Shown: in pieces, positions 3,894 to 7,404 of the stretch | Layout of the letters: each line of letters opens with the position of its first letter | Numbering within the stretch: position 1 is the stretch's first letter | Source: a virus | Strand: one strand, 5' to 3' | Length of the DNA: 21,177 bases | Virus record (IMG/VR): IMGVR_UViG_3300030380_003988 | Span: 1-21,177 of that record | Notes under the pieces: generated by a model | What the model was told of the DNA's origin: nothing | Seen by the model: only the letters and a program-made list of their open reading frames with translations | The model's database searches: none | Made by a program: the position numbers and the translations under genes

Positions 3894-3970
3894 CGTAAGT
3901 CGTTGAGTATCAACGAGTTACGGGGCGGGGGCCGCCCGCAGCGCGTAACTTCCTGAGTATCAATGAGTTA

Positions 3971-3972
<2 letters not shown>
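3894..3972. repeat. 79-bp double-dyad repeat, copy 3, overlapping the tRNA 3' end
   Basis: Left dyad GTAAGTCGTTGA-GTA-TCAACGAGTTAC (3895-3921), G/C core GGGCGGGGGCCGCCCGC-AGCGC, right dyad GTAACTTCCTGA-GTA-TCAATGAGTTAT (3945-3971). The last two bases of the repeat are also part of the encoded CCA end of the minus-strand tRNA (3971-3973), so the element directly abuts the tRNA 3' terminus. Confidence 0.9.
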
Positions 3973-4627: not shown

Positions 4628-4906
4628 CTACACAACAGTCGAAATTCTATCTACAATGAGGTTTCTGTATTTCTCCTTACCACCATCTTGAGGGTCAATG
4701 ATCTTGACATTTACATATTGATCTCCCGTTGATTGAGAGATTGAAACGTCCTCTACGGCTTCAACCTTGAAGACCCTTTCTCTGTCGAAGGTAACAGAAG
4801 AATCTTTTTTAGTTGTATAGTGAACTGTCTTGCCAGTAAGGGCAGAAGCAAGTTGCACAGGGTTAGTAGGAAGGGTGAGGTTGGCAGTAATGGTGTTTGT
4901 TTGCAT
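4628..4906 (-). CDS. DGGK-motif small protein, paralogue A (92 aa)
   Basis: The 92-residue protein starts MQTNTITANLTLPTNP. The frame is open for 56 more codons upstream, but the ATG at 4906 stands seven bases after a clear -10 TATACT / -35 TTGCAC, so the short form is preferred. The C-terminal half (VNVKIIDPQDGGKEKYRNLI followed by VDRISTVV) aligns with the protein at 6033-6368 (EVQDLDDGGKTKFRTLHVAG, then ITKV). Shared residues are DGGK-x-K-[YF]-R-x-L-x-V-x-x-I-x-x-V, and the upstream SSV...F.V strands also match. The pattern suggests a small beta-barrel fold (inference). I know no function. The pair probably arose by duplication of a cassette. Confidence 0.68.
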   Translation of the reverse strand: MQTNTITANLTLPTNPVQLASALTGKTVHYTTKKDSSVTFDRERVFKVEAVEDVSISQSTGDQYVNVKIIDPQDGGKEKYRNLIVDRISTVV

Positions 4907-4913
4907 TGAGGTA

Positions 4914-4941
4914 AGTATAGCAGAATTTTGAGTGAGTGCAA
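4914..4941 (-). promoter_or_regulatory. Leaderless-type promoter for paralogue A
   Basis: TTGCAC (4936-4941) and TATACT (4914-4919) are 16 bases apart, with seven bases to the ATG at 4906. This decides the start of the gene against the longer open frame. Confidence 0.72.
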
Positions 4942-5033
4942 GAGGTTTTTTGCTGAATTTTAATTTTTTTCTGAGCATGGTCTGTTTTTGTTGTAGGTTA
5001 GAGAAGCATAGGTTAAATAGCTTCGATACAAAT

Positions 5034-5061
5034 AGTTTACCAAATATCGCCAGATATGCAA
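5034..5061 (-). promoter_or_regulatory. Orphan promoter-like pair with no start codon
   Basis: TTGCAT (5056-5061) and TAAACT (5034-5039) with a 16-base spacer repeat the DUF932 promoter elements, but no ATG follows at the usual distance; the frame there is closed within a few codons. The 190 bases between 4906 and 5096 hold no other feature. It could start a short RNA running into paralogue A, or be a remnant of a lost cassette. Confidence 0.4.
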
Positions 5062-5095
5062 GCGATTTCTGCATTTAAATTAATTTTTTTTCAGT

Positions 5096-5174
5096 CGTAA
5101 CTCGTTGTATATCAATGACTTACGCGCTGCGGCCTACCCCCGCCCCGTAACTCCCTGATTATCAAGGAGTTAGA
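5096..5174. repeat. 79-bp double-dyad repeat, copy 4 (core inverted), supplying a stop codon
   Basis: Left dyad GTAACTCGTTGT-ATA-TCAATGACTTAC (5097-5123), right dyad GTAACTCCCTGA-TTA-TCAAGGAGTTAG (5147-5173). The core reads in the inverted sense, as in copy 2. The terminal TTA of the repeat (5170-5172) is the TAA stop of the minus-strand gene starting at 5388. Confidence 0.9.
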
Positions 5175-5873: not shown

Positions 5874-5952
5874 CGTAACTCGTTGAGTATCAAGGAGTTA
5901 CGCAGGGCGGGCTGGCCGCAGCGCGTAACTCACTGAGTATGAAGGAGTTACG
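5874..5952. repeat. 79-bp double-dyad repeat, copy 5
   Basis: Left dyad GTAACTCGTTGA-GTA-TCAAGGAGTTAC (5875-5901), 22-base G/C core, right dyad GTAACTCACTGA-GTA-TGAAGGAGTTAC (5925-5951). It lies 30 bases from the terminator of paralogue B. A minus-strand TTGACAGCCG abuts its right edge, as at copy 6. Confidence 0.92.
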
Positions 5953-5981
5953 GCTGTCAAGGCCAAAAAACAATTTAATGC

Positions 5982-6017
5982 AAAAAAAACCCGCCAGCCT
6001 CCGAAGAGACTGACGGG
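5982..6017 (-). terminator. Intrinsic terminator of paralogue B
   Basis: On the minus strand CCCGTCAGTC (6008-6017) pairs with GGCTGGCGGG (5990-5999) with G-T wobbles, followed by eight T residues. Confidence 0.85.
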
Positions 6018-6032
6018 CAACACGCTATGCAC

Positions 6033-6368
6033 TTAAAAAACTGATTTGGCTAGCTGGTAAGCGGTCGCCACGCGACCTTTAACTTTGGTGATCCCTGCAA
6101 CGTGCAAGGTGCGGAACTTGGTCTTGCCTCCATCGTCGAGGTCTTGAACCTCGCCTTGGATGTAGCGACGACCCGAACCTTTAGCGTGATCGGTGTGGTC
6201 GATTGACTTGATCACGAACTGACGGACACCATCATTCTTGACGGAGGATTCTTCGCTGTTCCAGTAAGTGACAACGCGATTGGTGAGCTTGTTCTTGAGG
6301 TCTTGATCACTGAGTCCATAGAGAGAGTGATCGAAGCGGGTGGTGGTAGTGGTAGTGGTGTTTTTCAT
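6033..6368 (-). CDS. DGGK-motif small protein, paralogue B (111 aa)
   Basis: The 111-residue protein starts with MKN and seven threonines, then a helix (YGLSDQDLKNKLTNR) and a beta-rich part ending in EVQDLDDGGKTKFRTLHVAG and ITKVKGRV. The region from about residue 25 to 95 aligns with the 92-residue product at 4628-4906 (see there). Paralogue B has an extra C-terminal basic tail (VKGRVATAYQLAKSVF). Function is unknown. The ATG at 6368 lies nine bases after a perfect -10 TATAAT, so at most a very short leader is made. A strong terminator follows. Confidence 0.7.
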   Translation of the reverse strand: MKNTTTTTTTRFDHSLYGLSDQDLKNKLTNRVVTYWNSEESSVKNDGVRQFVIKSIDHTDHAKGSGRRYIQGEVQDLDDGGKTKFRTLHVAGITKVKGRVATAYQLAKSVF

Positions 6369-6377
6369 AACGAGAGA

Positions 6378-6406
6378 ATTATAACAGAGATTTGAGTGAG
6401 TAAAAA
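6378..6406 (-). promoter_or_regulatory. Promoter for paralogue B
   Basis: A perfect -10 TATAAT (6378-6383) is seen nine bases before the ATG. The matching -35 position holds only TTTTTA (6401-6406), so this promoter may depend on an activator or on its A/T-rich upstream tract. Confidence 0.55.
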
Positions 6407-6436
6407 GCTTTTTTTGTATTTATTTTGATTTTTTTT

Positions 6437-6501
6437 TGGTGGATAGCGGGGGAGTCGAACCCCCATCCGCGACTTGCGTCCCGTCGAAACCCTTGCTACC
6501 C
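6437..6501 (-). ncRNA. Mini-tmRNA: tmRNA tRNA-like domain without a message domain
   Basis: Read on the minus strand from 6501 to 6437: acceptor GGGTAGC, then AAGGGTTTCGACGGG (the near-invariant 5' motif of tmRNA), a hairpin GAC-GCAA-GTC closed by a GNRA tetraloop, CGCGGAT, T-arm GGGGG-TTCGACT-CCCCC, acceptor GCTATCC, discriminator A and an encoded CCA. The third acceptor pair is G-U (G3:U70), the alanyl-tRNA synthetase identity element. The 30 bases between acceptor and T-arm are too few for D and anticodon arms, so it is not a tRNA. Normal tmRNA has about 300 nt (pseudoknots and tag ORF) where this has the tetraloop. It would be alanylated yet carry no tag. Its acceptor stem contains the TAG stop of the upstream 62-aa gene. 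Confidence 0.75.
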
Positions 6502-6684
6502 TAACTGAACTTCCTTGACTGCTTCATCAAGTTGGCTCTCGATTCTTTTGAAGGTCTCCTTGTTAAAGGCAGAAGTCTCTTGGAATGAAGACCTTGCTGC
6601 TGCGATGCCTGAAACTCCCTTCATTACCATTTGAAGTTTGAAGATTTGATCTTTGAGGTGTTCGATTTGTTCTTTTTCTGTCAT
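6496..6684 (-). CDS. Small coiled-coil-like protein, 62 aa
   Basis: Unrecognised 62-residue protein, MTEKEQIEHLKDQIFKLQMV with heptad-like hydrophobics at the start and a second helix (FKRIESQLDEAVKEVQL) at the end, joined by a Ser/Ala-rich linker. It probably forms a helical dimer (inference). The ATG at 6684 follows a -10 TAGATT by six bases with -35 TTGCAC. The stop TAG (6496-6498) lies inside the 5' acceptor strand of the mini-tmRNA, so the two are almost certainly on one transcript: ribosomes finishing this ORF would run onto the RNA's first stem, or RNase P cleavage at 6501 would remove the stop codon from the message. Confidence 0.66.
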   Translation of the reverse strand: MTEKEQIEHLKDQIFKLQMVMKGVSGIAAARSSFQETSAFNKETFKRIESQLDEAVKEVQLG

Positions 6685-6690
6685 GAGTAG

Positions 6691-6719
6691 AATCTACTTT
6701 AGTTTTTGAGATAGTGCAA
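6691..6719 (-). promoter_or_regulatory. Leaderless-type promoter for the 62-aa gene and mini-tmRNA
   Basis: TTGCAC (6714-6719), a 17-base spacer and TAGATT (6691-6696), then six bases to the ATG. It is the nearest promoter upstream of the tmRNA-like domain. Confidence 0.68.
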
Positions 6720-6736
6720 CCTTTTATTTTGTTTTT

Positions 6737-6937
6737 TTAAGGAAGAAAATGAGGGGCTTGCTTTGGCTGATTAGGCACATCTTTTATAAACCATTCGCGC
6801 TGTTTTTTCTGGAACTCTCGGGCTTCTTTTACGAATTGCTCCGAAACCTCGACGGTTCTATTGACCATCTTATTCCAATTGTCTTCGGCCTTCTTCATTG
6901 CTGCTAGTGCTTCCTGTGCTTCTTTTGATACGTTCAT
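6737..6937 (-). CDS. Small helical protein, 66 aa
   Basis: Unrecognised 66-residue protein, MNVSKEAQEALAAMKKAEDNWNKMV followed by a charged amphipathic helix (SEQFVKEAREFQKKQREWFI) and a Pro-rich end. It is almost wholly helical and could be a coiled coil. Unlike its neighbours it has no recognisable promoter close to the ATG. Its start codon overlaps by four bases (ATGA) the stop of an upstream open frame (6934-7074), so it may be translated by coupling from a transcript starting near 7111. No terminator separates it from the 62-aa gene's promoter. Confidence 0.58.
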   Translation of the reverse strand: MNVSKEAQEALAAMKKAEDNWNKMVNRTVEVSEQFVKEAREFQKKQREWFIKDVPNQPKQAPHFLP

Positions 6938-7074
6938 AGTGTTTGTATTTGGGAAATTGGTCGCTCTAAAAGGAATTGCACCTTTGTCTTTCTCGCCCGA
7001 ACCATTGGGGTTGCGGTGACTTTCGCGCCGAGATTATCATCGAGCGTGTTATTGAAGAGGTCGTGGAGAATGTT
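6934..7074 (-). pseudogene. Possible broken or non-ATG small ORF
   Basis: A 46-codon open frame (NILHDLFNNTLDDNLGAKVT..., ending LLERPISQIQTL) has protein-like composition and higher GC than the A/T-rich spacers. It begins directly after a TAA stop and has no ATG until codon 24 (7003-7005). Its end overlaps the next gene by ATGA, as coupled genes do. The TATACT at 7111 is followed not by ATG but by AGC at the usual distance. It may be a gene that lost its start, a product of ATT initiation or a 23-residue peptide. Confidence 0.3.
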
Positions 7075-7110
7075 TTACTTTTTAAACTATAGAGCTTTCT
7101 TGCTGGGAGA

Positions 7111-7116
7111 AGTATA
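7111..7116 (-). promoter_or_regulatory. Orphan -10 element
   Basis: A TATACT identical to the strongest -10 boxes here lies on the minus strand with no ATG in the usual position and only a weak -35. It may drive the broken frame and the 66-aa gene. Apart from this, the broken frame, repeat copy 6 and the terminator at 7354, nothing else is seen between 6938 and 7404. Confidence 0.4.
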
Positions 7117-7244
7117 GCACAGATCCGTATGAATTAAAAGCTTTTTTTACCTTTAAAATGATTTTTTTTAAGTTGTCAGACAGGTTAATTTTTTTTCATT
7201 TAAATGCTTGCGTTGATCTAAAAGTATGATACATGAGGAATCTT

Positions 7245-7323
7245 CGTAAGTCGTTGGTTATCAAGGAGTTACGGGGCGGGGGCGGGCCGCCGCGCGTAAC
7301 TCGTTGAGTATCAGTGAGTTACG
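7245..7323. repeat. 79-bp double-dyad repeat, copy 6
   Basis: Left dyad GTAAGTCGTTGG-TTA-TCAAGGAGTTAC (7246-7272), core GGGCGGGGGCGGGCCGCC-GCGC, right dyad GTAACTCGTTGA-GTA-TCAGTGAGTTAC (7296-7322). A minus-strand TTGACAGCG abuts its right edge. It is the last copy; none is found in the + strand structural region. Confidence 0.92.
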
Positions 7324-7353: not shown

Positions 7354-7387
7354 GAAAAAACCTCGCCACCCGTTGGGGTGACGAGGC
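7354..7387 (-). terminator. Intrinsic terminator of the gene at 7405-7746
   Basis: On the minus strand CCTCGTCACCC pairs with GGGTGGCGAGG (7375-7386 with 7361-7371, one G-T wobble), followed by TTTTTTCTTG. Confidence 0.88.
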
Positions 7388-7404
7388 TCCATGACAGCGG
7401 TAGT

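Follow-up and report, generated by a model that had tools for sequence, protein, structure and literature searches.

A phage gene for a tmRNA without a message and its covarying relatives in viral sequences

Our comparison strongly supports the view that an uncultivated tailed-phage fragment carries a gene for a CDS-less tmRNA, in which the complete tRNA-like domain (TLD) of tmRNA and a short, capped helix H2 are kept and the message is missing. The fragment (21,177 nucleotides of IMG/VR record IMGVR_UViG_3300030380_003988, hereafter the window) encodes PhoH, a sigma-70-region-2-like protein, a terminase with distant named relatives only and a possible capsid gene; for the major capsid protein of the window no named relative was found. 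The element belongs to a known but barely described kind of RNA. What is new here is its breadth, its near restriction to viruses, its covariation, the short form with a GNRA cap and the exchangeable cassette in which it sits, and with 32 distinct viral sequences showing strong covariation a curiosity becomes a conserved, largely virus-restricted RNA class.

Anatomy and detection of the 65-nt element

The complete TLD occupies 6501..6437 of the minus strand and, read in that direction, runs GGGTAGC AAGGGT TTCGA CGGGAC GCAA GTCGCG GAT GGGGG TTCGACT CCCCC GCTATCC ACCA, with the tmRNA 5' motif GGTTTCGACGGG. Its parts, and the reading frame that overlaps it, are as follows.

6437..6501, minus strand: mini-tmRNA (CDS-less tmRNA), 65 nt including the encoded CCA
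6495..6501, minus strand: 5' strand of the 7-bp acceptor stem, GGGTAGC
6441..6447, minus strand: 3' strand of the acceptor stem, GCTATCC, which gives G3:U70
6483..6491, minus strand: D-loop analogue, tmRNA motif GGTTTCGAC, the final C of which opens H2
6468..6483, minus strand: shortened, GNRA-capped helix H2, CGGGAC-GCAA-GTCGCG, in place of message and pseudoknots
6448..6464, minus strand: T-arm, GGGGG-TTCGACT-CCCCC
6437..6440, minus strand: discriminator A and encoded CCA
6496..6684, minus strand: 62-aa ORF, ending in GGG TAG (last codon and stop), which coincide with mini-tmRNA nucleotides 1-6

All the parts that the first-pass annotation had listed (acceptor, G3:U70, 5' motif, T-arm, discriminator A, CCA and a GAC-GCAA-GTC hairpin) occur within 6437-6501, in minus-strand orientation. 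The hairpin forms the end of an H2 stem six positions long, in which the window has a single G.G mismatch; a standard pair stands at this position in 30 of the 32 distinct sequences. Helix H2 of tmRNA ordinarily leads on to pseudoknots and the tag frame. Here it is closed by a 4-nt loop only, which leaves no room for a tag frame, and the element has neither the pseudoknots nor a reading frame for a tag, with its resume codon and stop. The acceptor with G3:U70 and the CCA end, the D-loop analogue TTCGAC and T-arm in the absence of a D-stem or anticodon arm, and an H2 that joins the TLD to the rest and, albeit short, covaries among relatives are all features of tmRNA (RF00023, ssrA), while the standard gene order, complete TLD and missing CDS are those of CDS-less standard tmRNAs.

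Neither ARAGORN nor Rfam at its gathering threshold calls the window's element. In a whole-model search with RF00023 it scores 43.9 bits (E 2.9e-18) with the entire model spanned, slightly below the gathering cut-off of 47 bits; the window's genuine tRNA-Met reaches 24.1 bits against the same whole model. The whole-model search is needed to see the full element, since a local cmscan of the region matched the T-arm alone (13.5 bits). Of the model runs proposed in the first-pass annotation, the one with the tmRNA model bears out its reading, though at a score under the cut-off, and the one with the Rfam tRNA model gave no call. Identity as a tRNA (RF00005) was rejected, there being no D-stem, no anticodon arm and no ARAGORN or Rfam call, as was identity as a permuted two-piece tmRNA (RF04321), which needs the 3' segment first while the element has standard order. 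Its fold is only modestly better than that of shuffled sequences (z -1.76), so the case for the element rests on comparison.

Viral relatives and covariation

An exact 25-nt core of the element occurs in ten viral contigs, and 55 viral contigs match a relaxed pattern with CCA at a gap of 8-38, giving forms of 65-84 nt with 7/7 acceptor pairs, versus 0 matches for the reversed-pattern control. The relaxed pattern demanded C71, C72 and CCA, but neither U70 nor the acceptor 5' strand. Together with the whole-model score, this excess upholds the earlier identification of the element as a tmRNA TLD without message. Matching without the CCA requirement had given a first set of 37, many of which look like chance and were set aside; so were three matches in the gap 39-69 class, none with a paired acceptor, which are chance or ordinary tRNAs. 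The gap 70-100 class holds ten matches, six of which have 7/7 acceptors and measure 126-140 nt, an intermediate form. We note that the tmRNA-like genes of this intermediate size, with 7/7 acceptor and G3:U70, are those of viral contigs L215, L218, L219, L220, L221 and L223. The window's own short, GNRA-capped type accounts for 7 of the 32 distinct sequences (23 contigs plus the window) and has GCAA or GCGA loops.

In 84,980 prokaryote genomes, a stricter short pattern, satisfied by 15 of the viral contigs, gave two matches, one of them true. The other (L084) is a chance match with 3/7 acceptor pairs. The true one comes from a single-cell contig of Prochlorococcus; at 130,604 bases, this contig has the same size and element as IMG/VR contig L022, which IMG/VR classes as viral.

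Constraint was assessed on 32 distinct sequences of 65-84 nt, with pairs counted from the element ends, as linker length varies and the default alignment misplaced the acceptor for this reason. All seven acceptor pairs form in 32/32, G3:U70 is invariant in 32/32 and the T-stem pairs in 32/32. Acceptor pair 5-68 occurs as four pair types and pair 6-67 as five; H2 position 2 is GC in 18 sequences, TA in 8 and AT in 6. Compensatory changes are thus seen in acceptor, T-stem and H2 alike, which answers the call of the first-pass annotation for covariation in acceptor and hairpin among related phages; the loss of acceptor or T-arm pairing in homologues, which it had named as telling against its reading, was not seen. 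As judged from these pair counts, it is the covariation that proves constraint, and identity by itself would be insufficient.

RF00023 matches 42 of the 44 carrier records with 43.5-78 bits across the whole model, and in 33 of the 44 the match passes the 47-bit cut-off; those that pass measure 65-84 nt, and other RF00023 matches within these records reach at most 32.7 bits. No longer high-scoring tmRNA was found in the 44 records, which may be fragments, and, provisionally and with the same proviso, no SmpB is encoded in the carrier records examined or in the window. Host factors would therefore be needed. Long-type minis of L011, L037, L096, L105 and L116 lie within or adjoin tRNA gene arrays.

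Among named phages, BLAST with short queries gave mostly T-arm or tRNA matches. Stenotrophomonas phage Jojan60 is the only followed-up isolate in which the mini is clear (ON045087.1:37722-37804, minus strand; 83 nt, 61.8 bits, GGGGCAT/ATGCTCC, CCA, adjoining a tRNA cluster); a clean mini was not seen in the followed-up isolates PA_L9, Rb1, RpAliso, Franklin22, QDWS595 and QDWS359. Mini-tmRNA-like genes without an encoded CCA were observed in L028, L031, L035 and L036 (44-65 bits with RF00023). In L109, ARAGORN calls a 489-nt tmRNA (636-1124) that shares its CCA end with an 81-nt mini; the absence of a message may have led the program to this artefactually long call. The class as such escapes ARAGORN, and the Rfam threshold misses the window's copy.

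Contrary to the first-pass annotation, which took an ORF-less phage tmRNA to be undescribed, the tmRNA of mycobacteriophage DS6A has been listed as 'TLD only' (PMC4131195). By description, this CDS-less tmRNA is likewise phage-borne, with little beyond the TLD and no tag frame; unlike it, the window's element occurs in a marine group, has its H2 capped by a GNRA loop and sits in a cassette bounded by repeats. Of the 97,179 sequences published in a 2025 database, 9 are CDS-less standard tmRNAs (against 72 permuted CDS-less forms), with one phage case named and two plastid genes. Again by description, the standard-order 'no CDS' tmRNAs of Mallomonadaceae plastids (PMC11915505) have the same size (~65 bp) and no CDS, yet are organellar where ours is viral; mitochondrial tmRNA without a tag frame has lost this reading frame too, but is also organellar. 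Full-length phage tmRNAs, as in Gordonia phage GMA2 (412-nt match) and Cellulophaga phage phi40:1 (362-nt match), share the same TLD, whereas the window's element is a bare TLD.

A candidate decoy against trans-translation

Anatomy, conservation, covariation and near absence from prokaryote genomes rest on this analysis. As for function, we favour (at a probability of roughly 0.6) that the mini-tmRNA acts as an alanyl-charged decoy, which would occupy SmpB, EF-Tu and stalled A-sites and so block tagging; the idea is plausible, and the published support for it concerns a similar molecule. The RNA would be transcribed inside its small-gene unit, excised by RNase P and 3' processing and charged by host AlaRS via G3:U70; bound by host SmpB and EF-Tu, it would then enter the empty A-site of stalled ribosomes. 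Having no resume codon, it cannot bring about tagging or termination, and by competing for stalled ribosomes and SmpB with the tmRNA of the host it may switch off tagging and proteolysis during infection. That a TLD suffices for entry follows from the crystal structure of an alanyl-TLD-SmpB-EF-Tu complex on a stalled ribosome (PMC3968760), in which the stand-alone TLD is a laboratory construct, unlike the naturally encoded phage RNA. According to PMC11915505, the TLD-only form of DS6A was shown to inhibit endogenous tmRNA in E. coli, and a DS6A-like molecule is described in PMC4131195 and PMC11915505 as inhibiting tmRNA whether charged or not, perhaps via SmpB titration. If such titration alone sufficed, G3:U70 would be dispensable. 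Its invariance hence favours an alanyl-dependent act over a sponge and, so far as conservation can tell, suggests that charging matters in nature.

For the same reason, the main rival is a tag-less rescue, in which the alanyl mini-tmRNA would accept the nascent chain on stalled ribosomes and the peptidyl-mini-tmRNA leave by drop-off or hydrolysis, so that ribosomes are freed and phage proteins spared tags. The invariant G3:U70 and acceptor pairing (32/32) are what an alanyl-dependent act requires, and mitochondrial tmRNA without a CDS has been kept together with SmpB, with a proposed role in dealing with incomplete mRNAs (PMC11915505); nevertheless, with neither resume codon nor stop the known release step is missing, and what PMC4131195 and PMC11915505 report for the comparable DS6A form is inhibition, which is why we consider rescue unlikely. 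A quite improbable option, to our minds, is that the tRNA-like structure serves solely as processing punctuation, recruiting RNase P and 3' nucleases to a polycistronic phage transcript to trim or destabilise neighbours such as the 62-aa ORF. While this ORF does end within the acceptor stem, such that maturation would remove its stop codon, the overlap is not conserved (it is absent in the L046 and L001 types), and G3:U70, TTCGAC and the H2 stem are kept although unnecessary for processing.

Conservation is accounted for as poorly by the idea of an ssrA gene in decay, acquired through a deletion or at an attachment site. Phages do integrate at ssrA and carry ssrA fragments (work cited in PMC9004378), but perfect acceptor pairing in 32/32 with compensatory changes, intact gene ends and CCA, the many different contigs and sequence types and the location of some copies inside tRNA arrays leave this origin, which the first-pass annotation had itself raised, very improbable and without support. 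Mycobacteriophage Validus, whose copy adjoins an integrase and looks like an attachment-site case, retains the 3' part only. Least probable of all is that the element is just the acceptor-bearing half of a two-piece tmRNA, with another RNA to supply the message: two-piece tmRNAs are common in marine phages (PMC9004378), yet here a single piece holds both acceptor strands in the standard order, H2 is closed by a tetraloop, and a second tmRNA piece was not found in the carrier records.

Beyond the decoy reading of the window's own RNA, it may be envisaged, tentatively and at slightly less than even odds, that several phage lineages each evolved or acquired a stand-alone TLD, which depends on alanine in hijacking SmpB and ribosomes that have stalled. 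Such RNAs would make up a wide viral class that inhibits trans-translation, or rescues without a tag, and that works as a host-takeover or counter-defence device. If inhibition proves true, viruses would have come repeatedly to blocking ribosome rescue, and the RNA would offer a small natural inhibitor for study; the invariant G3:U70 makes SmpB sponge versus ribosome entry directly testable.

A repeat-bounded cassette

In short-type carriers, the mini lies in a small-gene region divergent from PhoH. The window's arrangement around it is given below.

6737..6937, minus strand: 66-aa ORF, upstream of the mini on the same strand and associated with it in relatives
6033..6368, minus strand: 111-aa ORF, downstream of the mini on the same strand
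5989..6018, minus strand: intrinsic-terminator-like site closing the unit with the mini
7357..7390, minus strand: intrinsic-terminator-like site closing the preceding unit
5875..5951, no strand assigned: paired-palindrome repeat, left boundary of the cassette
7246..7322, no strand assigned: paired-palindrome repeat, right boundary of the cassette

The two boundary repeats belong to six copies in the window (the others at 1072-1148, 2856-2932, 3895-3971 and 5097-5173), each made up of two near-palindromes of 27-29 bp (CGTAACTC..GAGTTACG), placed exactly 50 bp apart, and a GC-rich core. Sited in the small-gene region and present in relatives too, they give 21 matches versus 0.00 expected; a role as mobile spacers, as regulators or in antitermination is conceivable. 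Relative L135 is colinear with the window, but ~390 bp replaces 5952-7244, the mini-bearing segment between the repeats. Among the 80 nearest relatives by the sigma-like protein, the mini was found in 5 only, many loci being too short to judge; where upstream sequence is sufficient the count is 5 of 28 loci, the window included, as is L174, whose mini was missed by the regex and found by the covariance model. Such patchy carriage would fit an accessory host-interaction gene. Among carriers the mini RNA is 85-98% identical to that of the window, and PhoH 41-95%. As the 111-aa ORF is ~90% identical in several carriers whose PhoH reaches only 44-63%, lateral exchange of the cassette may contribute to the high identity.

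No confident family was found for the 66-aa ORF (6737-6937). When it is present, the mini accompanies it in 4/4 covered loci, versus 1/24 when it is absent; the loci counted are related, and the data are suggestive only of an ORF that travels with the mini-tmRNA. RNase P maturation of the mini, in stripping the 62-aa ORF of its stop, would leave a non-stop mRNA; a comparable non-stop mRNA through processing has been noted for Carsonella smpB/ssrA (PMC4131195). Finally, a 148-aa ORF (4628-5074) and the 111-aa ORF match the same places in relatives and, by this measure, appear to be paralogues.
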